This document shows positions 53,028 to 64,000 of a DNA stretch of 64,000 bases, in pieces. This DNA is from Sphingopyxis sp. GTDB taxonomy: Bacteria; Pseudomonadota; Alphaproteobacteria; Sphingomonadales; Sphingomonadaceae. The stretch is taken from contig JAEMRT010000002.1 in the NCBI GenBank assembly GCA_016463225.1, positions 1-64,000 on the forward strand. Direction: 5' to 3'. The notes below the pieces were generated by a model. That model was given only the letters and a program-made list of their open reading frames with translations, had not been told where the DNA came from and ran no database searches. The stretch's first letter is position 1. Each line of letters starts with the position of its first letter. Made by a program: the position numbers and the translations under genes.

Positions 53028-53103
53028 GGGCCCTTAGCTCAGTCGGTAGAGCAACTGACTTTTAATCAGTAGGTCGCTGGTTCGAACCCAGCAGGGCTCA
53101 CCA
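53028..53103 (+). tRNA. tRNA-Lys(TTT)
   Basis: Acceptor GGGCCCT/AGGGCTC with one G-U pair. The D arm is GCTC...GAGC, the anticodon stem ACTGA/TCAGT holds loop CTTTTAA with anticodon TTT, and the T arm is GCTGG TTCGAAC CCAGC. The CCA at 53101-53103 is encoded. Gene content changes from core to mobile directly after it, so its 3' end is the likely attachment site of the element to the right. Confidence 0.97.
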
Positions 53104-53348: not shown

Positions 53349-54413
53349 GTGGCTGGACGATCAAAGAAAAAGCTGACCAATGAGCCGGACGTGGGCGGCA
53401 GCGCACCCGATCTCATCTACGAAACTAACCTCGGCAAGATGTATTGCGGCGACACGCTCAAGCTCTTGGCCGGCCCCGAAGGACAGGCGCTTGGCGGCAA
53501 AGCCCAGCTTGTATTCACGTCCCCACCGTTCCCCCTGAATATGAAGAAAAAATACGGGAACCTCCAAGGCGAGGAATATATCGAATGGTTTGCAGGGTTC
53601 GCTCCTAAGCTCAAAGATTTGCTCACCCCTGACGGTTCTATCGTGATTGAGATTGGAAATGCTTGGGAACCAGGGCGTCCTGTGATGTCCACGGTCGTTC
53701 TCAAAGCATTGCTTCGCTTCCTTGAGGCGGGCAACCTGCACCTGTGCCAAGAGTTTGTCTGGTATAACCCCGCCCGACTGCCCTCCCCCGTCCAGTGGGT
53801 CAACGTCGAGCGTATCCGCGTCAAGGACGCATTCAGCAAGATTTGGTGGATGTCGCCGGTCGATAGACCGAAGGCCGACAACCGCCGCATCCTAAAAGAA
53901 TACAGCGCCAGCATGAAGCGGCTGATCGAGACGGGGAAATACAACAGTGGGAAACGTCCCTCCGAGCACAACATCGGCAAAGAGAGCTTCAAGACCAACA
54001 ACGCAGGGGCCATCCCGCCAAACGTTCTCGACGGTGACGATGCGCCCAGCCTAGGAACTCTTCTCAAGGGAACGAATACCCGTTCACATGAGAAGTATCA
54101 GACGTTCTGTCGCGAGCGGGACATACCCTTGCACCCCGCGCGGATGCCGAAAGAGTTGGTCGAGTTCTTCGTCAAATTCCTGACCGATGAGGGCGACCTT
54201 GTGTTCGACCCCTTCGGCGGCAGCAACACGACAGGCGCAGTCAGTGAGGAATTCAATCGCGCCTGGGTGAGCTGCGAGGCGAACCTGCCCTACGTTACCT
54301 CTTCAATCGGTCGCTTCGACAGCGAGGATCTGCGGATTGTCGGCAACGTCGATCTGCCAGCCGCGACGGGAGACACGGATGGTGCGGAGAGGTTGGCGCA
54401 AGAAGCCACCTAG
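53349..54413 (+). CDS. DNA N4-cytosine methyltransferase, M.PvuII-like
   Basis: 354 residues from a GTG at 53349. The beta-class order is visible: motif IV TSPPF at 57-61 first, then motif I DPFGGSNTTG near 287-296. SPPF is typical of N4-cytosine enzymes. The stretches SPPFPLNMKKKYGN, VWYNPARLPSP, EWVN-like QWVNVERIRVKDAFSKIWW, RPSEHNIGKESF and HPARMPKELVEFFVKFLT resemble M.PvuII (CAGCTG, from memory of that protein) throughout. It modifies DNA probably for self-protection. Its stop overlaps the convergent ATPase stop as CTAG. A PvuII-type endonuclease is not next to it. Confidence 0.92.
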   Translation: MAGRSKKKLTNEPDVGGSAPDLIYETNLGKMYCGDTLKLLAGPEGQALGGKAQLVFTSPPFPLNMKKKYGNLQGEEYIEWFAGFAPKLKDLLTPDGSIVIEIGNAWEPGRPVMSTVVLKALLRFLEAGNLHLCQEFVWYNPARLPSPVQWVNVERIRVKDAFSKIWWMSPVDRPKADNRRILKEYSASMKRLIETGKYNSGKRPSEHNIGKESFKTNNAGAIPPNVLDGDDAPSLGTLLKGTNTRSHEKYQTFCRERDIPLHPARMPKELVEFFVKFLTDEGDLVFDPFGGSNTTGAVSEEFNRAWVSCEANLPYVTSSIGRFDSEDLRIVGNVDLPAATGDTDGAERLAQEAT

Positions 54414-56701
54414 GCTGCCTCGTCGGCCTCTTCTAGCGTCGATCCCGACCTCACTTCTTGCGAGGCAACCATGGCGGCGATTGAAGCAAGACGGCACCTC
54501 TCCTGGCGTGAGAACTCCGCGACTGCCTCCTCGTCCATGTCGACCACATCCTGCTCGCCTTCGTGCGCCAGCAGCGCGTGCACTGCTAGCCATAGCTCGT
54601 AACGGCGGATGAAGGACGCCAGAAGCGCGGGGTTCTGGCTCGCGATCCTCTGGCACTCGCCCGCAAAGCGTGAGAACTTGGTCGAATAATAGATGTAGAG
54701 AGTCCCCTCATTCATCTGAGCAGCGCTTGCGTGCCGCTTCACCGTGCCATCCTCGTCGCCCGCAGTGACAAGTTCCCAGTTCTCGTCCTCTGTCACGTCA
54801 ACGGGAATCACCTCGAACTGCGGGAAACCAGACTGTGAATCTCCTTCCTTTGGAGTCGGCGGATCGACAATCAACGTGTCGCGCTCATCGCTCAGGGCAG
54901 AGTGACCTGGCCGGTAGAGCTCGATGCGCACGCTTCCTTTGCTACCGAGTGCGATGTCGGCCTTGGCCAAAACTCCAATCCGCATTCGCCCGCCCTGGAG
55001 AGGGCTGGTACCGAAGACCTCGAGGTCGTCCGCAACGGCGATGTTAATCCGGGACTTCGCGGCGTCGTCCGGGTCGTGGTAGGACGAGTTGGCATCTGTC
55101 TCGATGCGGATATATCGGCGCTGTCCGGCGAAGAAGGTGATTGCCTCGTCCTGGTCCGCCACGATCCGGATGAAGGTCGGGGGATCGACGGTGTCAATCG
55201 GCTCAGGCTTCTGGCGGGGTTTGGGCGTCGGTTTGTCTACGCCGTCTTCGCTTTTCTTGTCGCCCTTAACTTCGACCAAAGCCGGACCGACGAGGCGAAG
55301 CAGCTTGGCAACCTGCCGCTGCATCTGCTTCTGCGCGTCGTCGTCTTTCTCCTTGAGGCTCTTTTCGCGGGCCTCTTCGTTCAGTCGCTTGAGTTCGTCA
55401 TCCGACTTGAGGAGGCTGATCACTTCCTGCTGAATGGTGGTTTGGACGTAGCCTTCCCGGGCCTGCTCGCGGGTCGAGGAAAAAAGCTGTCGTTTGGCGG
55501 TAGGTGACAGCCGGTCGCAACTGACGTGGACGATCAGCCGACCCTGCGTTTGAAGGAACGGAAGGTCAGCCTCTTTGCTGATGAGACGGCCGGAAAATTC
55601 TCCTTGGTTCTGGCCGTTATGAGAAAGCACGATTGGCTTCGCATCATCGACGAAGTTGCGTGACGGTTTGCTCGGCTTTTTTCCCTTGGCGACTTCAGGC
55701 CTCTTAAGCACCCAGTACTCGATCCCGATGTCGCCATGGTCGCCAAGTGACACGTTAAACATGGGCAGATGGTAATCGAGATCGGGCCCTTTTCCACCCT
55801 CATCTCCCGCGTCCAAGGCGCCGTTCAACGCGTTACGGGCTCCTTTGATTGTGCGATTCCAACCGGCCACGATGTTCTCGAAGCGCAGCGGGGCAACGGG
55901 ATCGAACATAATCCGCTGCAAGGCGCCATAAAGGCTGCGAGTGCCGAGAGATGACGTGTAACTTGTCAGATCATAGCCGAAGTGCCGGATCACCGTGCCG
56001 TTCTCGAAATCCCCGTCCTGAGCCTGGGTTGTGAGTACGTCACCTTCTTGAACCAAGTACACATAGCGCCCAGTTTTGTAGTCCTCTGCGGGGAGGTCCT
56101 GATAGCGGACAACCGTAAACGCAATGACATCCGTACCCTCCATCCTAGACGCGATGAAAACATATTTCGAGAACGCTAGGGTGCTTGAGCCTCCTTGGCC
56201 GTAGGTCCCTGCCAGGTAATGCTTCTGGATCTTGTTGCTCTCGTTGAGGCTGAGGATAGTGTCCTTCATGCGCATCGGCTCAATTCCGGTGCCGCGATCA
56301 ACAACCGTCAAAATCCGCGACTGCCAGCCCTCGCCAGGTTCCAACCGGACAACCGTCCTCTCTGCAAGCCCTTGACGCTCCTTCGGCGTCAAGCCGGCGA
56401 GGCCGGTCTTCGCGGGGACGCCCAGCCAAGCCTCAGCAGCCTCCCGCGGAGTGCGGCATTCCGGTACGCCCTTGTGGTGGCCGTGCTCGAGTTCCAGCAG
56501 CGCGTCATGTCCGTTTGTTACACGCTCAATGAGCGAGCGGGCTGGATCGGCAGCAACCTCGATGGCGCCACGGTTGTTTGCCCGCCCGCCAAACGGGACT
56601 TCATTAGCCCCGGCCACTTCGAGAAACTTTGCGTGCGCGGCTCGCACATCTTCCACTTTCTCGGCTTTGAGCAGGGTATTGAACAGGTCGCGCACCAACA
56701 T
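54410..56701 (-). CDS. GHKL-superfamily ATPase, large protein of a defence-like module
   Basis: 763 residues. N-terminal Bergerat ATP-binding fold: E59 and N63-G64-x-D66 in IERVTNGHDALL (N box), VDRGTGI at 134-140 (G1), and GTYGQGGSST at 165-174 (G2 lid). It then has an S5/transducer-like region with PTAKRQLFSSTREQAREGYV near 415, a coiled coil around 450-490 (EEAREKSLKEKDDDAQKQMQ) and a beta-rich C-terminal third. This resembles MutL/MORC-like GHKL ATPases that Iyer, Abhiman and Aravind linked to restriction-modification operons. ATP-dependent clamping of DNA or scaffolding of effectors is likely. A 79-residue gene lies 12 bases upstream on the same strand. Confidence 0.85.
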   Translation of the reverse strand: MLVRDLFNTLLKAEKVEDVRAAHAKFLEVAGANEVPFGGRANNRGAIEVAADPARSLIERVTNGHDALLELEHGHHKGVPECRTPREAAEAWLGVPAKTGLAGLTPKERQGLAERTVVRLEPGEGWQSRILTVVDRGTGIEPMRMKDTILSLNESNKIQKHYLAGTYGQGGSSTLAFSKYVFIASRMEGTDVIAFTVVRYQDLPAEDYKTGRYVYLVQEGDVLTTQAQDGDFENGTVIRHFGYDLTSYTSSLGTRSLYGALQRIMFDPVAPLRFENIVAGWNRTIKGARNALNGALDAGDEGGKGPDLDYHLPMFNVSLGDHGDIGIEYWVLKRPEVAKGKKPSKPSRNFVDDAKPIVLSHNGQNQGEFSGRLISKEADLPFLQTQGRLIVHVSCDRLSPTAKRQLFSSTREQAREGYVQTTIQQEVISLLKSDDELKRLNEEAREKSLKEKDDDAQKQMQRQVAKLLRLVGPALVEVKGDKKSEDGVDKPTPKPRQKPEPIDTVDPPTFIRIVADQDEAITFFAGQRRYIRIETDANSSYHDPDDAAKSRINIAVADDLEVFGTSPLQGGRMRIGVLAKADIALGSKGSVRIELYRPGHSALSDERDTLIVDPPTPKEGDSQSGFPQFEVIPVDVTEDENWELVTAGDEDGTVKRHASAAQMNEGTLYIYYSTKFSRFAGECQRIASQNPALLASFIRRYELWLAVHALLAHEGEQDVVDMDEEAVAEFSRQERCRLASIAAMVASQEVRSGSTLEEADEAA

Positions 56702-56713
56702 GAGTCTGTCTCC

Positions 56714-56953
56714 TTAAAGGGTGAACCCACCGCTCCGCTTCGTCTTGGGCGAAGCAAAGCGCTGCTCAACATCCGTGACGCTGTCCCGGAGTGCCTTCAC
56801 GATCTTCTTAACCTCGGTATCCTCCCACTCATAGAGCTGCTTGTTGGAGAGGTTTCCTAAGCGGGCGATAGCCTCGATTGCCCGATTCGTTCGGGCCTCC
56901 GCTAGCTCACGAAACTTGCCCCGCTTCGACAGTTCTTCCTGAATTTTTGCCAC
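56714..56953 (-). CDS. small helical protein paired with the GHKL ATPase
   Basis: 79 residues from a GTG at 56953, chosen because a GGGAGA ribosome site lies 6 bases upstream and coding-like sequence begins there. It is charged and helical: RGKFRELAEARTNRAIEAIARLGNLSNKQLYEWEDTEVKKIVKALRDS, ending in KTKRSGGFTL. No family recognised. It is separated by 12 bases from the ATPase start and should be co-translated, so a regulatory or complex subunit is inferred. Confidence 0.7.
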   Translation of the reverse strand: MAKIQEELSKRGKFRELAEARTNRAIEAIARLGNLSNKQLYEWEDTEVKKIVKALRDSVTDVEQRFASPKTKRSGGFTL

Positions 56954-57010
56954 TGAATTTCTCCCGCATATTTTTAAAACTGTGCGTGATATATCGTAGA
57001 GATTATTCTG

Positions 57011-57051
57011 CGTGTCAAGATGCAGGCATATTTGATGAAATATACGACACG
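57011..57051. promoter_or_regulatory. nested inverted repeats upstream of the ATPase operon
   Basis: CGTGTC (57011-57016) and GACACG (57046-57051) enclose a second palindrome, ATATTT-GATG-AAATAT (57028-57043), in an AT-rich stretch 58-98 bases upstream of the small-protein GTG. This is a plausible operator/promoter for the ATPase operon. Seen directly; function inferred. Confidence 0.35.
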
Positions 57052-57152
57052 TTTTTGATGCTGCACGGCGCGATTTTGAGCGCTTGCAGACTCCGGAAGT
57101 TTGCAAGTGCGGCGCCTGAGGTGCCGCCGCGCGATCATAGGATGTCGGCACT

Positions 57153-57453
57153 GTGGCAGTTGCCACGGTTGGGCGAGCAGGTTCGGGATTTGAGGCGCTG
57201 CTAGACAAGCTAAGCGATGGAGACCTCGTGCGCGTGACGGGTAAACGCGCCCCTCCCCACATTGGGCGAGGTTCCTGCCCTAACGCTACGTGAGCGCCTA
57301 TTTCCAGAGCGAGCCCCTGCAACCGCGGGATATGACCAGGTTGCGAGAGAAGTAGGCTTTGTCTTCTCGGACGACACCGACTGCGAAGTTTTCCTTACAA
57401 ACTACAAGGATTTCTACCGCTTCTACCCGGCGCTTTTATCGGCCGAGCTATAG
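57153..57453 (+). pseudogene. possible frameshifted short gene
   Basis: Two overlapping open segments in different frames look coding. GTG 57153 to TGA 57293 gives TVGRAGSGFEALLDKLSDGDLVRV and so on; from 57262 the +1 frame gives GEVPALTLRERLFPERAPAT and continues with FVFSDDTDCEVFLTNYKDFYRFYP to the stop at 57453. A single indel near 57262-57290 would make one protein of about 100 residues. The end overlaps the convergent XRE gene. No family recognised. The alternative is two unrelated chance ORFs. Confidence 0.3.
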
Positions 57454-57668
57454 GTTTGCGGGACGGGAGCAAGCAGGTCTCCCGGCAGAACTTCCAATGC
57501 GCGTGCCAACCGCCCCAGCACGCTGACAGAGGGATTGCGACGACCGCGTTCAATGCCGCCCATATAGGTCAGATCGATTTCGGCATCATGGGCAAGCTGC
57601 TCCTGCGTCAGCTTCCGCTCAACCCGCAGCCGCCTCACATTTGCGCCGACGATCTTGTTCCAGTCCAT
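57423..57668 (-). CDS. XRE-family regulator, controller (C) protein-like
   Basis: 81 residues, one cro/C1-type HTH. IVGANVRRLRVERKLTQEQLAH and then IDLTYMGGIERGRRNPSVSV; the GGIERGxRNPS block is typical of restriction-modification controller proteins such as C.PvuII. The ATG at 57668 (MDWNKIVG) is preferred over the open frame to 57698. An 18-bp palindrome lies 35 bases upstream in the gap to the divergent nuclease-like gene, so it likely controls both itself and that gene. Confidence 0.87.
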   Translation of the reverse strand: MDWNKIVGANVRRLRVERKLTQEQLAHDAEIDLTYMGGIERGRRNPSVSVLGRLARALEVLPGDLLAPVPQTYSSADKSAG

Positions 57669-57702
57669 CGGCCAGACTGATGCCGCGCCGCGCAACATTC
57701 AC

Positions 57703-57720
57703 TAGGGACTATAGTCCCTA
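57703..57720. promoter_or_regulatory. perfect 18-bp palindrome resembling a C box
   Basis: TAGGGACTATAGTCCCTA is a perfect palindrome between divergent genes: 34 bases upstream of the XRE start and 39 upstream of the nuclease-like start. Its GACT..AGTC core matches the general form of C-protein boxes. TATAGT inside may also form a -10 element. Binding by the adjacent XRE protein is inference. Confidence 0.65.
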
Positions 57721-57759
57721 TTTGATTGACAGCGCCGATTAGCGCGGCAGAGTCGCGCC

Positions 57760-58272
57760 ATGTTCGATCTGTGGGCCCCTGAGCACTCGGTGCTGCGCGA
57801 GAAGGTAATCGAACACATATTCCTCGCCGAGCTGTCCCGGCACCTCCTGCTCGATCTGGGTCAGCCGTTCGAAGTACTGCGGCCTGAGTACGACGCATTC
57901 GGTTACGACGTCGTGGTCCAGGTCGGCGCCGCGATGCGGCACATCCAACTCAAAGCCACAACGGCGAGCGGCGCCCGTGCGCACGTCGATGTCCAGCTCG
58001 CCTTGGCGCAGAAGCCGGGCGGATGCGTCGTGTGGATGTTCGTCGATCCAACCACCCTCGCCCTCGGCCCATTTCTCTGGTTCGGCGGTGCAGTTGGGCA
58101 GCCGCTACCACCGCTCGGCGATCGGGCCGTGCGCCATACCCGCGGCGATGCCGATGGCGTGAAGAAAGTCCGAAGCGGGCTGCGGCGGCTGCCACGTGGC
58201 GAGTTCGTACGGTTTGAGACTATCGGTGATCTGGCCATGGCCATGTTCTCGGACGCCGGCCCGCCGTCATAG
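57760..58272 (+). CDS. predicted PD-(D/E)xK-like nuclease, possible restriction component
   Basis: 170 residues. A helix REKVIEHIFLAELSRHLLLDLG with Glu18, then FEVLRPEYDAFGYDVVVQV and RHIQLKATTA, gives the order Glu, Asp50, Gln63-x-Lys65. That is the PD-(D/Q)xK core seen in many endonuclease-like domains where Gln replaces Glu. The strand VDVQLALAQKPGGCVVWMFVD follows as expected for the fold. I recall proteins like this as common unnamed neighbours of XRE genes in alphaproteobacteria. A DNA-cutting role is inference. It is divergent from the C-like regulator. Confidence 0.68.
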   Translation: MFDLWAPEHSVLREKVIEHIFLAELSRHLLLDLGQPFEVLRPEYDAFGYDVVVQVGAAMRHIQLKATTASGARAHVDVQLALAQKPGGCVVWMFVDPTTLALGPFLWFGGAVGQPLPPLGDRAVRHTRGDADGVKKVRSGLRRLPRGEFVRFETIGDLAMAMFSDAGPPS

Positions 58273-58335: not shown

Positions 58336-58734
58336 GTGGCAGCATCCGCAAGCAAATCGACAATGACCCGAAGCGACAAGGGACCGGTCGCGAGATATGA
58401 GGTACATCGGCAACGGGAACCGGTCGCGCGCGGGGTTCAACGGTCGCCGGTCGTAGAGGAATTCCAAGCTCTCGATCGCGCTCGGCTCAGGGCCCTCGGC
58501 TATGCGCTCGACGGCCCCACGTCGTCCGGCGAGCGGTTCACCGGCACCGTGTCCGTGGTGCGGGTTCTTTGGAGCGGCGACCGGCGCGCCACGACCGATC
58601 TCATCGACGTAATCGACGAGCGCGTGGCGTTCCGGCTACTCAACGAGGTCCGCCTGCCACGCCCGCAAGATCTGGCGGTGTCGCTAGATCGCATCCAGTC
58701 AGAAATCGACGCAATCGCTCATATCGGCGTTTAA
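58336..58734 (+). CDS. hypothetical protein
   Basis: 132 residues from a GTG at 58336. No signal peptide or membrane span. The N-terminal 30 residues are basic and low-complexity; the rest (RARLRALGYALDGP, FTGTVSVVRVLWSGDRRATTDLID, QSEIDAIAHIGV) is a small alpha/beta domain. No family recognised. It follows the nuclease-like gene by 63 bases on the same strand and may belong to that unit. Confidence 0.5.
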   Translation: MAASASKSTMTRSDKGPVARYEVHRQREPVARGVQRSPVVEEFQALDRARLRALGYALDGPTSSGERFTGTVSVVRVLWSGDRRATTDLIDVIDERVAFRLLNEVRLPRPQDLAVSLDRIQSEIDAIAHIGV

Positions 58735-58823
58735 CGGTGCCCACTTCGGTGCTTCCATGGCGAGCGACCGCGGAAAGCGCGAATAGCTAACGCGTTCTGT
58801 GCGGCGACACTCGAATTGAATAT

Positions 58824-58859
58824 CAGAAGGCCCCGAGACTGAAATCTCGGAGCCTTCTG
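58824..58859. terminator. hairpin between convergent genes
   Basis: CAGAAGG (58824-58830) pairs with CCTTCTG (58853-58859), and inside it CCGAGA (58833-58838) pairs with TCTCGG (58845-58850) around loop CTGAAA, with one mismatch. It lies between the stops of the convergent genes at 58734 and 58862. There is no T-run, so it may work as a bidirectional, non-classical terminator. Confidence 0.5.
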
Positions 58860-58861
58860 CG

Positions 58862-59149
58862 TCAGAATCGCTCGTAGGTTTCGGTCTTGCCGCAGCGGAT
58901 CACGTCCACGTCGACCGGCCATGGGTCCCTGACCCACATGAGTTGCCCTTCGTCCGATCCCGACTTAATCATAAACGTCTCCCGGTAGCCGAAGCCGCGC
59001 AAGATGCTACACAGCCCCTTCCTCGCTCGCATAGGCATGAGGTCGGGGTCTCCCCTGCCTGCGATCAGCAGCCGGAACGCTTCGTTCAGGCTGATCGCCT
59101 GATAACCGGCGAGCTTGCGGATCGAGGACAATACTGGATTGCGCGCCAC
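58862..59149 (-). CDS. hypothetical protein, third gene of an orphan cassette
   Basis: 95 residues from a GTG at 59149, one base after the stop of the upstream gene. Sequence: an N-terminal helix-rich half (NPVLSSIRKLAGYQAISLNEAFRLLIA) and a beta-rich half with GLCSILRGFGYRETFMIKSG and MWVRDPWPVDVDVIR. No family recognised. Close spacing with the two genes before it suggests one product complex or assembly line. Confidence 0.62.
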   Translation of the reverse strand: MARNPVLSSIRKLAGYQAISLNEAFRLLIAGRGDPDLMPMRARKGLCSILRGFGYRETFMIKSGSDEGQLMWVRDPWPVDVDVIRCGKTETYERF

Positions 59150-59150
59150 G

Positions 59151-59420
59151 TCACGCCGCCGGATTGAGGAAGTTGCCGCCGCGCGTCAGCTTCGGCCAGG
59201 TGGAGCGGTTCGGTGCACCGACGGGAAGTCCCTGCACGGCGACGGCATCAATGCCCGCGCCGACGACAACGGCGGTGAATTTTTCGATCGACGGACCACC
59301 GGCCAACGTTTGAGCAACGGTGCGGGCGGCCGCGACGTCTGCGCCCTCAGCTATGATGAAGCCGATACCGTCAGGACGGCGGAGGTTTTCGGCGGCGGAA
59401 AAGAAGGCAAATACGGCCAT
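59151..59420 (-). CDS. hypothetical protein, second gene of an orphan cassette
   Basis: 89 residues from an ATG at 59420 with an AAAGGA ribosome site. Hydrophobic beta-like stretches (MAVFAFFSAAENLRRPDGIG, FIIAEGADVAAARTVAQTL, FTAVVVGAGIDAVAVQGLPV) and a Pro/Arg-rich end (PKLTRGGNFLNPAA). No signal peptide. Could be a small structural or partner protein; no family recognised. Confidence 0.62.
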   Translation of the reverse strand: MAVFAFFSAAENLRRPDGIGFIIAEGADVAAARTVAQTLAGGPSIEKFTAVVVGAGIDAVAVQGLPVGAPNRSTWPKLTRGGNFLNPAA

Positions 59421-59465
59421 GTGAAATTCCTTTTTGGTTGGTGCTGCGGCTTTGTGGCGGACGGA

Positions 59466-60215
59466 TCAGGCCGCTTCGGCGGGCTGCTCGGCGTCTTCCT
59501 CATCGTCGGTATAGGCCCCGATTTCCTGCTCGCGCTTGCGGAGCATTGCGATCTGGAGTGCGCGCTGGGGGTTGGGCTTGCCTGTCTCGAACTCGGCGTC
59601 CTCATTGAGCGCTTCGAGTACGCGCCGCTCGGCCTCGACGAGCGCCTGGCTCATCTCCCGGTGCAGGTCACCGATAAGCACGTCGGCCAGTTCGGAGGCT
59701 GAGAACGGACGGTCAGTGCGTGGCAGGTCGGAGATCCGACTGCACAGTGCCGCCGCGAGCTCCTTGTCCTTGGTGGCCGCCGCGAACTCCGCCAAGCTGG
59801 CGATCTCCACCGGGCCAGACCCCGCGATCTGCTGCATGATCCTGCTGCGCCGTTCTGATCCGAGGGTCTCGCGCATGAGCATCTGGATTGGGCTGCGGTA
59901 GTGCACGGCAGCAGCACTCAGCTTTCCAGCGAGGCCGCCCAACTCGCGAGTGTGGGCACGTCGCTGGTCAGCGCTATCGCGGACGAGCTCACCGCGAAAT
60001 CCGCTGATCGACTTCGCGACAACCGAGGGGCGATCCTTCGCATCGAGGGTACGAAGAGAGCTTGCGACCTGCTCGCCGTGGCGCTCGACGCGACCGGACA
60101 AGTTGCACAATAGGTTGGTGTGGGCGGTGCGGCCGGCATGAATGCGGGTGATCATGGATCGTATGTCGGTCGGGCTCAGCCATTGCGCTCCGAGCGTGGC
60201 TTTGGGTGCGGGCAT
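59466..60215 (-). CDS. hypothetical helical protein, first gene of an orphan cassette
   Basis: 249 residues from an ATG at 60215 with a perfect AAGGAG ribosome site, the best in this region. It is mostly helical and highly charged: THTNLL-like AHTNLLCNLSGRVERHGEQV, VVAKSISGFRGELVRDSADQRR, LCSRISDLPRTDRPFSASELADVLIGDL, and an acidic end EEDAEQPAEAA. It may be a coiled-coil or capsid-scaffold-like protein, but I recognise no family. It leads the three-gene minus-strand cassette. Confidence 0.68.
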   Translation of the reverse strand: MPAPKATLGAQWLSPTDIRSMITRIHAGRTAHTNLLCNLSGRVERHGEQVASSLRTLDAKDRPSVVAKSISGFRGELVRDSADQRRAHTRELGGLAGKLSAAAVHYRSPIQMLMRETLGSERRSRIMQQIAGSGPVEIASLAEFAAATKDKELAAALCSRISDLPRTDRPFSASELADVLIGDLHREMSQALVEAERRVLEALNEDAEFETGKPNPQRALQIAMLRKREQEIGAYTDDEEDAEQPAEAA

Positions 60216-60468
60216 GTTCTTCTCCTTGAAGGTCCTCGCGTCTCGCTAGGGGCTTCATGATCCGACCATGCCCGGGCTCAGCCCAGGTGATGCCCGCCAT
60301 CGCGGGCATGGCCGAGACGCAATTGCCTCGAACGACACACGATTATTGGATGCGCTTGCAAAGACGCGATCTGGACCATTACTGATCGCGAATGGCCAAA
60401 TCGGATGGCCGCCGCCGCGTTCTGAGAACACGGCGGCGGCCGAATGGACGAATTAGCGCAGCCGAATG
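60216..60468. other. gene-free stretch with one palindrome
   Basis: 253 bases without a convincing gene between two minus-strand genes. ATGCCCGC (60290-60297) and GCGGGCAT (60302-60309) form a perfect 8-bp-arm hairpin; a smaller GGGCT/AGCCC hairpin precedes it. These could end the transcript of the 81-residue gene before the orphan cassette begins. Confidence 0.45.
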
Positions 60469-60714
60469 TTAAGCCGCCTTCATGACTTTCTGCGCCCACT
60501 TGCGCTGCATCTTCGGATCGACCCCAGCGAGGAGCACTCTCATAGCGATGAGTCCTGGTCCGCAACGCTTATGCACTTCACGCGCGGCAGCGTGCGCCAC
60601 GGCACCGTATTCGACCACCTCTGCCGACGCTTCCGGATTACGGGAACGCATCATGGCAAAGTCGCTGCTCAACACTTCGATGACGCGCTTATCGATGGTG
60701 ACTATCTTTCCCAT
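60469..60714 (-). CDS. hypothetical protein
   Basis: 81 residues from ATG 60714 (MGKIVTIDKRVIEVLSSDFA), chosen over 60726 because GGAGG (60724-60720) lies 5 bases upstream. Helical with a basic C-terminus (RVLLAGVDPKMQRKWAQKVMKAA). No family recognised. The ribosome site and codon pattern make it a real gene. Confidence 0.62.
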   Translation of the reverse strand: MGKIVTIDKRVIEVLSSDFAMMRSRNPEASAEVVEYGAVAHAAAREVHKRCGPGLIAMRVLLAGVDPKMQRKWAQKVMKAA

Positions 60715-61033
60715 ATAAACCTCCAATTGTTGCGCACGAGGTTTCGTGCGGGAGATCCAATCAGGGATTCAAACCGCCGCTGCTATCAACGTTTGGGTTA
60801 AAATCGGATTCATAACTTGCGCTGGCAAATCGCGAGAGTTTCAAGTTTTGGCCGACCAAGATCGCATTCGTAGGCGCAGCTCGGTATTCTGCACGGTATT
60901 TCTTCGACAGTCAGGCTAAAAACCCAACAATTCCAAAGCTCTTACCGCGTTGTCTCACTGATCGACGATCAGAGCTGTTGACCCGCAAACAAGATTGCGA
61001 CCACAATTCCTCTATATCGCCAGGAGGGGGAGA
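60715..61033. other. 319-base gap between divergent small genes
   Basis: No convincing ORF. It contains a 7-bp hairpin CGCACGA/TCGTGCG (60733-60750) next to the start of the minus-strand gene and a 15-base palindrome CTGATCG-A-CGATCAG (60958-60972) 62 bases before the plus-strand gene. The base composition is more AT-rich than the core chromosome. It probably holds two divergent promoters. Confidence 0.5.
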
Positions 61034-61402
61034 ATGGTGAAGATAGCCGATACAATTTTCAAACGAGTGCCGCCGGCAAACTTTGCCGAAAAGATAGGAA
61101 TTCCTGTCGGATGGGTTGTCATTCGACATAGCCATGTCGCCACGAAACTAGCTCGCAGGAAAACGCACGGCAGATGGGTATCTATCAAGTGCGGAAATGA
61201 GAAAATCTATCGAATTCTTCGATACTCGGCCAAGCTTCCAGCCGATCAAATTGTTATCGATTGGGCGGGTTGGATCGATCTTCAAGGCCGCACAGATGAC
61301 GAGTCGGAAATACTCCAGCTAGAGATCGACAACGCTAGCTTTCGGGAATTGCTTACGATCCCATTCAAGCACGTTGATCCAGGATTTCGGCTTTCGGCGT
61401 GA
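61034..61402 (+). CDS. hypothetical protein
   Basis: 122 residues from ATG 61034, preceded by a strong AGGAGGGGGAG ribosome site. No signal peptide. MVKIADTIFKRVPPANFAEK, then RWVSIKCGNEKIYRILRYSAK and IVIDWAGWIDLQGRTDDE; beta-rich, perhaps a SH3-like or barrel fold. No family recognised. Codon use is visibly less GC-rich than elsewhere, pointing to transfer from another host. Confidence 0.65.
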   Translation: MVKIADTIFKRVPPANFAEKIGIPVGWVVIRHSHVATKLARRKTHGRWVSIKCGNEKIYRILRYSAKLPADQIVIDWAGWIDLQGRTDDESEILQLEIDNASFRELLTIPFKHVDPGFRLSA

Positions 61403-61456
61403 CTTGGCCTAATCTCCGTGGGGTTGGGTGTCCTGTCCGTGATATTATCGATCACT

Positions 61457-62005
61457 CTAGCTCCCTGACAACTCATTCGAAGCTGTGTCCGGTAGGCGCT
61501 CTCGATATCTCGCCTGCTGGAGCGCCGCGGCGGCGCTCCACTGCTCAATGGGCAGTGTGCCAGGAACGACGAGTACGCCGCCGCCGCCCGTGTCTACGCT
61601 GAGCTTTCCATCATCGCGATCGCGCCAGCCGTGGCGGGCTTTGGCGAGAAAAATTGCCGCCACGGTGTCACCCTTGCGGGCAAGTTCCATCAGGATGTCG
61701 CGTAGTTCGGTTTCCTCAAACGCACGCTGCGCCTCAACTTGGGCCAGAAGGTCTGGGTCATCCTGCATCAGTCGGTCGAAGGTCTTCACAGCGATAGACA
61801 GAGCCCTGGCGATTGCGTTCTTAGGATAGCCATCGAAGAGCGCCGCCATGACACGCTCGCGGTTGTTGGCGGACAACCGGACCTTGTTGTGTGGCTCAAA
61901 GCCTTCGAGCTTCGCCCGCGGGGGCGCTACCGACGAGCCGGGCGCGGGTTCGTCGAGCGGGTCGATGCCGAGACGGCGGGCGCGCTTTCGAGGTGATCCT
62001 GCCAT
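61457..62005 (-). CDS. HTH protein resembling a phage terminase small subunit
   Basis: 182 residues. A basic N-terminus (MAGSPRKRARRLG), then a helix-turn-helix-like block RERVMAALFDGYPKNAIARALSIAVKTFDRLMQDD near 50-84, and a helical region ending in AIFLAKARHGWRDRDDGKL near 118-136. The 'no-target recruiting HTH plus AxFLAKxRxGW' pattern is common in terminase small subunits of small phage-like elements. No large subunit is in the window, so this is inference. Confidence 0.55.
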   Translation of the reverse strand: MAGSPRKRARRLGIDPLDEPAPGSSVAPPRAKLEGFEPHNKVRLSANNRERVMAALFDGYPKNAIARALSIAVKTFDRLMQDDPDLLAQVEAQRAFEETELRDILMELARKGDTVAAIFLAKARHGWRDRDDGKLSVDTGGGGVLVVPGTLPIEQWSAAAALQQARYRERLPDTASNELSGS

Positions 62006-62055
62006 GCCGGCGACAGTGCCGCGGGTGTGGGCGCGCAGGGACCAATGCTATTTGT

Positions 62056-62427
62056 TCAGTTGGCTGGGTACTTCGGCGAACCCTGATCACGCCACTCCAT
62101 ACTAACCTGCAGGTCGGTTGTCGTGGCTACGTAGCTTCCCCGCCATAGCTCTAGAATTACGGCGGGCCTCCCGTCGATCTTGCCTGATCGCCAGAGGCCG
62201 TTGCGACGATCCGAGCCCTGATCGATAACGACAGTCCTACCGCCAAATCGAAACGTATGGCGCAACCCGGTCGGCGTCGAGACATACCGCAAGGTGCAAT
62301 ATACCTCGGTGGCCCCGTCCTCGTCGGATTCGGTAACGTTCTGATAGGTGCAGCTTTGTGGAAATGGCCCATCCTGTGCGGCGGCCGATGAGGTAAAAAG
62401 CGCGAGCGCTGAGATCAGTTCGAGCAT
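62056..62427 (-). CDS. small secreted protein
   Basis: 123 residues. The ATG at 62427 (MLELISALALFTSSAAAQ) opens a Sec signal peptide with AAA-Q cleavage near residue 17, and GGGGGA lies just upstream. The mature part is beta-rich with two cysteines (QSCTYQN, VYCTLRYV) that may form a disulfide. No family recognised. Upstream in-frame ATG at 62499 is rejected as lacking a signal. Confidence 0.62.
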   Translation of the reverse strand: MLELISALALFTSSAAAQDGPFPQSCTYQNVTESDEDGATEVYCTLRYVSTPTGLRHTFRFGGRTVVIDQGSDRRNGLWRSGKIDGRPAVILELWRGSYVATTTDLQVSMEWRDQGSPKYPAN

Positions 62428-62605
62428 GCATCCCCCGTGTTCCAATCTTGATACCGAGAGCCGCGATCGGTGTCGAGCGCGGTGCTTCGGCCGGACCACG
62501 ATAGCCTAAGTATTGTAGATCAATGCCTTGCGGGCAGTCGCCCCCTAATTTCTACTTAGATGCTCACCTTTACCAGTCGAGCCGGATCGAAGGATGTCTC
62601 ATCGC

Positions 62606-63214
62606 CTACTTGTTGCCCTGCCTATTCCACTCAGGCTTGATGAGACGGATAAGTCCCGTCTCCAGTCCTGGTGCGCCATCCACCGGCAAACCGTTCCATT
62701 CGAAGCTAGGCGGGGTCGCTACGAGAACTTGGACGCGTGCTCCTGCCCGAAGCGTCTCCAAGATGCGACCTTTGATGTGCGCGGAGGTTTTTTGGCCTTT
62801 GTGGCCGCGGATGTAATGGCCAAGCCGCGTCCGAAGAGCATTACGGGTCAATCCGACGTATTTGATCCAGCCATCGACCGCGAACGCATATACCCCTGCT
62901 TCGGAAGGCGTCGCCGCGCTGTAGCCGAAGCTGTCGTCGTCGGTAAGCGAGCAGTCGCAGAGCAGGACGAACTGGGCTTCAATAAGTTTCTCGATTGGCC
63001 AAGGCTCAATCGGAATGGAAGCCCTTTTCGCTGTACGGTCCGAAGGCGTCCGCGCTTCACGAGGCATTCCCCTAATGAGCGTATTGCGGACATGCTGAGG
63101 CCGAATATCCAAGAAATGAGCAATCTCGGTGCGAGAGAAACCGGCAAGATCTAATGCCCTAATTTTATCCGCCTTCGTTGTCAGGCCTTCGACGATTTTC
63201 TGCGGTAGCGGCAT
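62606..63214 (-). CDS. HTH / GIY-YIG nuclease domain fusion
   Basis: 202 residues. Residues 14-48 form a helix-turn-helix (KADKIRALDLAGFSRTEIAH, FLDIRPQHVRNTLIRG). Residues about 105-190 are a GIY-YIG domain: AGVYAFAV, then WIKYVGLTRNALRTRLGHYI with the catalytic Tyr pair and Arg, and ending in GLETGLIRLIKPEWN with the metal-binding Glu and Asn. A site-specific nuclease with its own DNA-binding head is likely: homing-type or anti-phage. Start ATG 63214. Confidence 0.78.
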   Translation of the reverse strand: MPLPQKIVEGLTTKADKIRALDLAGFSRTEIAHFLDIRPQHVRNTLIRGMPREARTPSDRTAKRASIPIEPWPIEKLIEAQFVLLCDCSLTDDDSFGYSAATPSEAGVYAFAVDGWIKYVGLTRNALRTRLGHYIRGHKGQKTSAHIKGRILETLRAGARVQVLVATPPSFEWNGLPVDGAPGLETGLIRLIKPEWNRQGNK

Positions 63215-63576
63215 TTATGAAGACTGGGGGATAAGACCAAAGGCTGCAAGGCAGATTTCTAGAACGCGGGCCATGTGCACCAGTGCTTGAAGCAGTATCA
63301 ATTTGTGAGCGACGGTTTCAAGCGTGAATCCCTCTACGCACGCGCGCGCGCGTTTTGCCAATGGACGGCAAGGCAAGTGAGTATCCGGGGACAGGTAGAC
63401 AAGCACGCTTCGGCTCACCCGGATTGCTCTCACTCGTCCAGTGGCGACACGATAGTCGTAATAAATTCATTTATCAGAATAGTGCTTGTCTACCTGTCTA
63501 CAGCGTCGAAAACATATGAAAATAAAGGATTTGGCGGTGGACGACATGCGCCGTCCACCGCCGGTCCATACGCGCC
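63215..63576. other. 362-base gap with a long inverted repeat
   Basis: No convincing gene. The stretch holds the 17-bp inverted repeat described separately at 63390-63498, an AT-rich core (near 63459-63482) and a further CTGTCTACA copy at 63581 just inside the next gene's end. The layout could be an origin or a regulatory region for the downstream phage-type genes. Confidence 0.45.
63390..63498. repeat. 17-bp perfect inverted repeat around an AT-rich core
   Basis: GACAGGTAGACAAGCAC at 63390-63406 is the exact inverse complement of GTGCTTGTCTACCTGTC at 63482-63498, 75 bases apart. The spacer's right half is AT-rich (AATAAATTCATTTATC). CTGTCTAC recurs beside the right arm (63495 and 63581). 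Iteron-like sites next to replication genes have this look. Confidence 0.65.
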
Positions 63577-64000
63577 TTAGCTGTCTACATCGTCGCCATG
63601 GCGGCGCTGATACGACTCCGCACGTGCTGCGGCACCTGCTCCTGCCCATTCATCGTGGTTGCGGATGGACCATAGCTGACACGACGGGCGAGCATCGTCG
63701 TCGCCCTTCGTATAACGGGTGTGTTTGACTGCGCCGACCTCGTCTTTCAGCCATCCAGCGACCTTCGTGCGAACGTTGCGCGTGTGCCGCTTGAGATCCG
63801 TCGGCACACAGGCAACGAGTTCCTCCAGCCGCACCAGATCGAAGGCAAACGGCCCCTCATGGCCTTCCAGTAGCTCGGCAAGATACTGCTCGGCTTCCGA
63901 AAGGGATCGTCGGCGCATTTCCTGCTTGCCGCTGGTCGTCGGTGCCATGCCCTTCGGATTGAGCACCACCTTGCGCTGCATCAGATAGTGTTTCACCGCA
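63577..64000 (-). CDS. C-terminal part of a probable phage-type primase/helicase, runs off the window
   Basis: About 141 residues visible; the frame is open to base 64000, so the GTG at 63996 is not a reliable start. Visible: KVVLNPKGMAPTTSGKQEMRRR, SEAEQYLAELLEGHEGPF, KVAGWLKDEVGAVKHTRYTKGDDDARPSCQLWSIRN. The WLxxxxG..HTRY.. ending resembles the winged-helix tail of DUF5906/P4-type primase-helicases, which bind origin DNA. The ATPase part is beyond the edge, so the call is tentative. Confidence 0.5.
   Translation of the reverse strand, partial: AVKHYLMQRKVVLNPKGMAPTTSGKQEMRRRSLSEAEQYLAELLEGHEGPFAFDLVRLEELVACVPTDLKRHTRNVRTKVAGWLKDEVGAVKHTRYTKGDDDARPSCQLWSIRNHDEWAGAGAAARAESYQRRHGDDVDS

Follow-up and report, generated by a model that had tools for sequence, protein, structure and literature searches.

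Genes and features of the tRNA-Lys island

The window, by which we mean the whole 64,000-nucleotide stretch of DNA analysed here, contains five genes of interest next to a tRNA-Lys gene, arranged as follows:

53028..53103, + strand: tRNA-Lys(TTT), located by ARAGORN; integration site; its 3' part (from 53058) makes up the left repeat
53349..54413, + strand: PvuII-type N4-cytosine DNA methyltransferase, 354 aa
54410..56701, - strand: 763-aa GHKL (Bergerat-fold) ATPase from an unnamed family of ~800-aa proteins
56714..56953, - strand: p79, small partner protein, 79 aa, GTG start
57423..57668, - strand: XRE controller-type regulator (unit B), 81 aa counted from its ATG
57703..57720, no strand: C-box-like 18-bp perfect palindrome TAGGGACTATAGTCCCTA, between the XRE and p170 genes
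57760..58272, + strand: p170, predicted PD-(D/E)xK-fold nuclease, 170 aa (unit B)
58336..64000, no strand: remainder of the island inside the window, with small phage-like genes

An ORF check of the window confirmed all five reading frames at their expected coordinates, and the genes and the tRNA lie where the preliminary description had put them. Their location at the border of a mobile element, also proposed there, agrees with the finding that the 3' part of the tRNA-Lys gene is present as an exact 48-bp repeat at contig positions 53058 and 67591, at the two ends of a 14.5-kb island that stops at contig position 67638; a third copy, at contig 74335, has 51 bp in common with the first. The island also carries prim-pol, HTH_17 and integrase genes, together with a phage-like block (for example, a 249-aa gene at 59466-60215 and a 182-aa gene at 61457-62005), relatives of which accompany the XRE-p170 pair in loci L084-L086.

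What had been read as one five-gene system is two separable units, perhaps with one methyltransferase in common: unit A (53349-56953), made up of the methyltransferase, the GHKL ATPase and p79, and unit B (57423-58272), in which the XRE and p170 genes diverge around the C-box. A single fixed operon was rejected because each unit recurs without the other. The ATPase and p79 are in fact absent from all ten of the wider p170 neighbourhoods, and neither p170 nor XRE was found in L001 or L027, where the ATPase and methyltransferase genes occur as a pair; the nuclease therefore does not regularly accompany the ATPase.

Unit A: methyltransferase, ATPase family and DNA modification

The assignment of the first gene to the PvuII type stands, based on a match to Pfam N6_N4_Mtase (5.8e-31) and on M.PvuII as the best solved relative (1boo, E 2.1e-75); the protein is 43.7% identical to the product of a gene on the 4,675-bp Proteus vulgaris plasmid NC_002632. 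The enzyme probably makes N4-methylcytosine, at a PvuII-like site. Its gene lies tail to tail with that of the ATPase, with an overlap of 4 nt, and the same convergent, overlapping pair is found in L001 and L027, where the ATPases are 69% and 61% identical to that of the window, which brings to three the lineages with this pairing. A tail-to-tail arrangement of the ATPase with a distantly related N6_N4_Mtase-domain enzyme is also seen in L037, L038, L039 and L053 (coordinate gaps of -3, 10, 6 and -49, respectively). Alternatively, the window methyltransferase may serve p170, or be solitary.

The ATPase is a member of the GHKL superfamily, as originally described, with the Bergerat-fold motifs (N box, DxGxG, G2 box) and a fold to match. 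Residues E59, N63, D66, A67, D135, G137, G139, G165 and G170 are invariant in 19 family members, as is the D-x-G-x-G motif, and a GxYGxGG/GxYNMGG-like box is in register. Foldseek searches with the ATPase model retrieved Hsp90, MutL, SMCHD1, GyrB, topoisomerase II and MORC, with E values of 1e-9 to 4e-5 among the 50 matches listed and query-length TM-scores of only 0.18-0.29. HATPase_c_3 is matched by 6/19 members, and the window protein has no useful match in Pfam (Ermin at 0.06 only), PADLOC or NCBIfam. That the locus belongs to no class that could be named is in keeping with the PADLOC (2023) models, which matched none of the 19 members at E 0.01.

Identity as a MORC proper was rejected, as the S5 motif (GhXhhpXXRhl) is absent in all 19 members. 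The ExxxH of paraMORC2 (the C-terminal part of S5), sought within residues 300-470, occurs in one member alone (L001, residue 307), the TIR domain of paraMORC4 in none at 0.01, and the HxH of paraMORC5 at scattered positions in 10/19, with no histidine column reaching 80%. No Pfam nuclease match at 0.01 was seen in the 19 members that would correspond to the C-terminal RE-fold nuclease (E-D-ExK) of paraMORC3/Shedu-like proteins; beyond residue 470, the only polar positions with conservation of at least 60% are R529, T535, D536, N675, D677, H708 and E729, and the C-terminal part of the ATPase model is of low confidence.

The proposed tie between this family and DNA modification was upheld by the gene neighbourhoods, as a modification gene lies in the fetched stretch of 18/23 family loci, window included (domains were checked for 11 of the 18). 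Three loci carry a PvuII-type enzyme, four the second type, three a C5 methylase, seven a PAPS reductase and one DndB. The remaining five (L005, L007, L032, L034 and L040) have none in view, two of them (L032 and L040) lying at the end of a contig and a third (L034) being a fragment of 407 aa; rows of this kind do not group as a single branch on the ATPase tree. Control stretches from the same genomes (348 kb) gave 0/20 at E 1e-5 and 1/20 at 1e-2, compared to 13/16 for the ATPase loci in genomes (293 kb), a low control count that is favoured by the control queries having been drawn mostly from ATPase loci. Furthermore, because a methyltransferase-type gene is found in 5/10 of the p170 loci, which represent another set of mobile genes, part of the enrichment may reflect the richness of islands in such genes. 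Two weak ATPase matches, G579 (L023, for which no wider stretch was fetched) and G886 (L057), are not counted among the 23 loci. On the ATPase tree, built on 20 rows (the fragmentary L034, L037 and L040 were left out), modification type needs five changes, the minimum for six labels, and none of 200 shuffles reached so few. Each of four groups (PvuII, second-type, C5 and PAPS) is a single branch with support of 100/99 or better; that of the PvuII group is long and holds three rows.

The p79 and ATPase genes form an operon in which the putative ribosome-binding site of the ATPase gene shares bases with the p79 stop codon (TAAGGAG..ATG), and the small protein may bind the ATPase. It is found in 9/23 ATPase loci and recurs directly 5' of ATPase-family genes at eight other places; it was not detected in the nearest relatives, L001 and L027. 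On plasmids, p79 precedes other GHKL-like proteins (a set of 14 records; H15, which has no annotation, and the near-duplicates H8, H10 and H17 were not fetched). Profile comparison of the p79-linked GHKL families was not significant, with two of the three best stretches aligning at GHKL boxes. Searches of p79 against Pfam, NCBIfam and PDB profiles yielded only weak, scattered matches; no literature was found for DUF6339, and that on DUF4007 among the matches listed was unrelated.

Unit B and a PvuII-like alternative

Both the controller box and the nuclease candidate of the preliminary description withstood analysis. The 16-bp core of the palindrome is identical in L084 and L085, and no such palindrome was seen in the other four loci compared (half-sites by eye). 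The fold matches of p170 are weak but consistent and predict a PD-(D/E)xK fold with conserved E14, E43, D45, D50, Q63 and K65; they include PvuII endonuclease (1ni0, E 0.039), which was not retrieved when the p170 profile was run against PDB sequences at E 1. XRE accompanies p170 in 7/13 loci, and a methyltransferase-type gene is present in 5/6 of the XRE-bearing p170 neighbourhoods, compared to 0/4 of those that lack XRE. These genes encode an N6_N4_Mtase in L084 (2.5e-50), a C5 methylase in L086 (3e-48), an N6_N4_Mtase with ParB_N in L089 (9.6e-32), an enzyme in L087 with 62% identity to the latter, and in L090 a protein with 52% identity to that of L089 and ParB_N as its only Pfam match. 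Unit B therefore looks like a set of R-M genes itself, and it could use the methyltransferase of unit A, on which it may depend.

Taken further, the methyltransferase, the XRE controller and p170 could constitute a C-R-M type II system, to which the ATPase and p79 would be separate or accessory, in overlapping arrangement. It resembles PvuII in that an M.PvuII-family enzyme has nearby a C-type regulator with its C-box and a PD-(D/E)xK-fold protein, and the methyltransferases that go with XRE-p170 elsewhere speak for it as well. However, the conserved neighbour of the methyltransferase is the GHKL ATPase, which it accompanies without p170 in L001 and L027, while XRE and p170 are separable from it. 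No close PvuII-type enzyme was found near p170 in ten loci, where the window methyltransferase as a tblastn query gave weak matches only, in L084, and the methyltransferase genes near p170 may instead be part of the phage-like block. We consider this explanation somewhat unlikely.

A proposed modification-guided GHKL module

We tentatively favour, at a little less than even chances, a role of unit A in defence, as a mobile GHKL module guided by DNA modification. Our best reading is that it is akin to the MORC/paraMORC-linked R-M systems known since 2008, yet its ATPase lacks the hallmarks of MORC and of paraMORC2, 4 and 5; its outcome would be restriction or silencing. With prokaryotic MORC/paraMORC (PMC2292703) it shares an N-terminal GHKL module, linkage to DNA methyltransferases and lateral mobility, but its family is without the MORC S5 motif, TIR, conserved HxH or ExxxH, and neither a recurrent small partner nor one branch per modification was found described in the part of PMC2292703 available to us. 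The preliminary description was correct that Z1 helicase is absent from the island, but overstated the case in saying that GHKL-linked systems usually carry it, since in the account of Iyer, Abhiman and Aravind (2008) about 70% are associated with SFII helicases and a helicase-free minority, like the module seen here, is described (PMC2292703). Unlike in MORC/Z1-helicase R-M operons, no SFII or Z1 helicase gene was found on the island; leaving aside the VapE-like/DUF5906 part of the primase-polymerase, no helicase was matched among nine window and eight further island proteins.

Other GHKL systems show partial resemblance. As here, GHKL proteins adjoin methyltransferases in the HEF_HK/Response_reg_2 R-M genes, going by what Bellieny-Rabelo et al. 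(2021, PMC8011034) describe, but no HEF_HK match was obtained in the window proteins scanned, and the ATPase of the window belongs to another family. Relatives of the ATPase do adjoin a gene of HEF_HK kind in L006 (HEF_HK 7.2e-5, just under the Pfam cut-off, with HATPase_c_3), homologues of which lie beside ATPase relatives in L004, L029 and L030, that of L029 having no HEF_HK match at 0.01. VcSduA, the GHKL-Shedu of Vibrio cholerae formerly annotated as paraMORC3, is an anti-phage GHKL ATPase with its own DUF4263 nuclease domain, as reported in PMC12137116; none is recognised in the window ATPase. Similarly, the paraMORC-Ymh (HEPN) fusions, as presented in PMC3710099, are GHKL ATPases embedded among R-M genes, but no HEPN/Ymh domain is recognised in our protein.

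Under the modification-guided reading of unit A, the methyltransferase would mark host DNA by N4-methylation of cytosine at a PvuII-like site, and the GHKL ATPase, aided by p79, might be an ATP-driven clamp on DNA that acts where the mark is missing or wrong. The mark would thus instruct the ATPase, with restriction as the presumed outcome. Such DNA might be stopped either by MORC-like blocking or compaction, or via a recruited nuclease from outside the fixed module; since no nuclease or helicase gene was found to travel with the methyltransferase and ATPase, cutting is unproven. XRE and p170 would be a second unit on the same island that may share the methyltransferase.

The absence of a nuclease from the module would also suit a role in the island's own epigenetic regulation or maintenance (gene regulation, stability, DNA repair) in place of defence. 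GHKL proteins do include MutL and topoisomerases, which are among the fold matches, and mismatch-repair roles were suggested, in the passages of PMC2292703 that concern them, for GHKL versions outside R-M contexts. Coupling to several modification types is nonetheless more usual for defence, and so are a patchy distribution (5/396 genomes of the order, 11/385 of the class and 4/398 of the phylum, each count including the genome of the window itself) and six plasmid locations, which makes this role improbable in our opinion. The idea of a phage gene is not supported, as the ATPase was matched by none of 50,697 phage records at 1e-5, nor by viral_contigs in a search of the kind that finds close relatives only, and p79 and p170 have no phage match either. 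Least probable, and by a wide measure doubtful, is an abortive version in which ATPase and p79 become toxic to the cell once infection disturbs the mark, with the methyltransferase as antidote. The overlap of the two convergent genes, and the match between ATPase branch and modification type, would fit addiction-like coupling, but no toxic domain was recognised in the 19 family members.

Eukaryotic MORC-type ATPases silence DNA according to chemical marks. A role with DNA methylation has been predicted for their bacterial kin since 2008, as set out in PMC2292703, and a functional test of bacterial GHKL relatives was found, in the literature searched, for VcSduA only (PMC12137116). The occurrence of related ATPases each tied to one DNA mark suggests an unstudied modification-guided defence system, and a compact natural set with one ATPase branch for one modification type would make mark-reading by a GHKL clamp directly testable with two or three genes in a laboratory strain. 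A bolder version, which we regard as rather unlikely, is that of a novel immunity class where one GHKL clamp family was coupled at least four times to different marks (PvuII-type N4C, another N6_N4 type, 5mC and a PAPS-reductase type linked to sulphur), where p79 is an exchangeable adaptor for several GHKL families that show no detectable sequence likeness, and where the clamp, with no intrinsic nuclease, stops unmarked DNA. The p79 family, in turn, offers a way into what may be a general cofactor of such ATPases. In the one case compared, p79 was seen to follow host family more than ATPase lineage.

Modification genes paired with the ATPase

All five genes of the preliminary description proved to be present as it had stated when their reading frames were checked. 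To judge from its sequence, the window methyltransferase (METHYLTRANSFERASE) is PvuII-type: it matches Pfam N6_N4_Mtase and the PADLOC type II methyltransferase model (1e-83), and its closest solved relative is M.PvuII (E 2.1e-75), with the SPPF and FGGSNTTG stretches aligned. This enzyme family is common, as relatives (E 1e-20 or better, identity below 60% in all) were found in 2,181 plasmid records.

For the ATPase, a useful library match was not found. Among 19 members of its family, six matched HATPase_c_3 in Pfam, one weakly matched topoisomerase VI-B in NCBIfam, and none was matched in PADLOC; the GHKL box residues, the NGQ motif (N362-G363-Q364) and R411 are invariant in all 19. The predicted structure (mean pLDDT 71.1, pTM 0.56, poor in its C-terminal part) resembles those of Hsp90, MutL, SMCHD1, GyrB, topoisomerase II and MORC (E 1e-9 to 4e-5) at TM-scores of 0.18-0.29 by query length, a likeness that suffices for the GHKL class, not for details. 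Searches with a single sequence found the family in at least 5 of 396 order-level and 11 of 385 class-level genomes, and a profile search found it in at least 4 of 398 genomes from the phylum; each count includes the window's own genome and is a lower bound because few candidates were scored per genome. At 1e-5, relatives were present in 6 of 72,556 plasmid records and in none of 50,697 phage records.

Methyltransferase-linked GHKL ATPases are a known theme (PMC2292703, PMC8011034, PMC12137116, PMC3710099). No description of this ATPase family or of its small partner p79 was found in the titles and abstract openings of the literature searched.

A DNA-modification gene lies within the fetched stretch in 18 of 23 ATPase loci (the window, L001, L003-L008, L027-L040 and L053).

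Modification genes in the fetched ATPase loci
PvuII-type methyltransferase: window, L001, L027
Second N6_N4_Mtase-domain type: L037, L038, L039, L053 (Pfam 1.2e-15 to 6.9e-12)
C5 methylase: L033, L035, L036 (Pfam 4e-43 to 4e-37)
PAPS reductase: L003, L004, L006, L028-L031 (domain checked in L003, L028, L031)
DndB: L008 (Pfam 1.9e-29)
None in the fetched stretch: L005, L007, L032, L034, L040

Genes of both N6_N4 types directly adjoin the ATPase gene or run into it, tail to tail in all seven loci (coordinate gaps -57 to 10), and in the window the two are convergent with a 4-nt overlap; C5 genes lie at most 0.72 kb away and PAPS reductases 0.3 to more than 7 kb. At 1e-5 the same queries, drawn mostly from ATPase loci, gave matches in 4 of the 6 loci on plasmids and in 13 of the 16 in genomes (293 kb); none of 20 control stretches of those genomes (348 kb in total, three stretches under 9 kb) was matched, these controls being ordinary chromosome, not islands. 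With three more methyltransferases as queries the controls gave 0/20 at 1e-5 and 1/20 at 1e-2, the sole match being a 25% PAPS reductase match (L101). In a comparison set of mobile genes, the p170 loci, a methyltransferase-type gene was present in 5 of 10.

In a tree of 20 ATPases, the four larger modification groups each form one branch (support 100/100 or 100/99). The six modification labels need five changes, the minimum possible and a value reached by none of 200 label shuffles, a clustering that is helped by near-copies; the rows without a modification gene need two changes. The lone DndB row groups with the PvuII branch through a long branch, a placement not to be trusted. In the PAPS reductase loci this ATPase family is also accompanied by a large protein, ATP-binding or hypothetical, and in some by DUF4007 and histidine-kinase-like genes (HEF_HK in L006); these sets are possibly a phosphorothioation-like system.

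The small partner p79

Relatives of p79 lie directly upstream of the ATPase-family gene in L032, L034, L035, L036, L038, L039 and L040, and an eighth was found in L053, so that with the window p79 is present in 9 of 23 loci; in L001 and L027 neither tblastn at E 1 nor inspection of the upstream frames revealed it. F14, A18, R21, N37, Y41, I51, F77 and L79 are invariant in eight sequences, in an alignment where some start codons were assigned in frame by hand. In the window, the stop codon of p79 shares nucleotides with TAAGGAG, the putative ribosome-binding site of the ATPase gene. Between the window and L038, p79 is 59% identical and the ATPases 27%, whereas L038 shares 37% ATPase identity with L039 and L053 and p79 identities of 36% and 39%, respectively. 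These contrasting identities indicate that the two genes differ in history in the case of L038, acquisition from a same-family donor being one explanation.

A plasmid search from p79 alone returned 14 records, and in 7 of the 10 stretches fetched the gene directly downstream encodes about 615-640 aa, in which motifs resembling the N box and G2 box were read by eye.

What follows p79 in the plasmid stretches
L059, L060, L067, L062-L065: ~615-640-aa protein (L065 from an open frame)
L058: 802-aa protein with a GNGGK-type box
L061: 121-aa protein, no likeness seen
L068: cut short ahead of an IS3 transposase gene

In Pfam, two of the eight large proteins, those of L059 (0.0012) and L060 (0.0031), matched HATPase_c_3 below the curated cut-off and the other six had no match at 0.01; profile comparisons between the p79-linked GHKL families were not significant, so calling them GHKL depends mainly on motif reading. 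L058 (NZ_CP118613.1:48000-68000), on a conjugative Ensifer plasmid, brings together a PvuII-type methyltransferase (47%), an AAA_5 ATPase, p79 and the 802-aa candidate GHKL protein, and is thus a variant that differs in its large protein. In L062, L063 and L064, on Bacillota and Actinomycetota plasmids, p79 recurs next to Dcm, Vsr or restriction genes together with DUF6339 (no mention of which was found in the literature searched) and two further proteins, one of ~285 aa and one of ~630 aa with GHKL motifs.

Possible mechanism and the XRE-p170 pair

Because the ATPase branch pairs with the type of modification, the best explanation is that the ATPase, or its complex with the methyltransferase, would discriminate DNA by its paired mark. 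GHKL proteins are ATP-driven dimer clamps. The ATPase might block DNA or recruit other factors, not cut; we favour this with low confidence, since across the three PvuII-type loci it has no recurrent neighbour recognised as a nuclease gene (for L001 and L027, the adjacent frames were inspected visually and compared with the window genes by BLAST). DNA looping was proposed for GHKL proteins by Iyer et al. 2008 (PMC2292703).

Alternatively, the methyltransferase may mainly protect against p170, and methyltransferase, XRE and p170 could form a PvuII-like restriction-modification system. The p170 model (mean pLDDT 87.9) resembles PD-(D/E)xK proteins, namely SPARDA effectors (from 5.4e-4), DpnI (3.2e-3) and Hjc resolvases (from 4.7e-3), at TM-scores mostly of 0.3-0.45 by query length, and its profile retrieves I-Ssp6803I (0.0033). 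Of 249 genomes in the family, 12 hold relatives of p170, among them the window's own, which has a second copy on another contig; a divergent XRE relative is found at 7 of 13 p170 loci (L070-L082). In ten wider p170 neighbourhoods the ATPase and p79 were absent (0/10) and XRE was present in six (L084-L087, L089, L090). A methyltransferase-type gene accompanies five of these six, in support of the PvuII-like system, and none of the four without XRE: N6_N4_Mtase in L084, a C5 methylase in L086, ParB_N plus N6_N4_Mtase in L089, and genes at 62% (L087) and 52% (L090; in Pfam only ParB_N) to that of L089. This points to XRE-p170 as a possible restriction-modification-like family with a changeable methyltransferase (N6_N4, C5 or ParB-linked), and in that way favours the PvuII-like system. 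L084-L086 also carry relatives of the window's phage-like 249-aa (41-61%) and 182-aa (34-48%) genes, placing XRE-p170 in a shared phage-like block. The 18-bp palindrome around which XRE and p170 diverge (57703-57720) has a 16-bp core identical in L084 and L085; in L086, L087, L089 and L090 a palindrome of this kind was absent and half-sites alone could be made out by eye.

Tandem islands at tRNA-Lys

The contig carrying the window is bacterial (158,655 bases), and the 3' part of its tRNA-Lys is repeated exactly at 53058, 67591 and 74335 (48-51 bp), the first repeat-bounded interval being 14.5 kb.

66246-67439: tyrosine integrase, end of the first interval
with it: HTH_17 protein (presumably AlpA-type) and Prim-Pol/DUF5906 replication protein
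72823-74184: the second interval's own tyrosine integrase

The methyltransferase-ATPase-p79 unit adjoins the tRNA end. At 62606-63214, a 202-aa protein ends in a GIY-YIG-like stretch by eye, with no Pfam match at 0.01. The two intervals are tandem islands at one tRNA. The second (67591-74335, beyond the window) is adjacent, is bounded by the same tRNA-Lys repeat and encodes two proteins that look secreted by eye.
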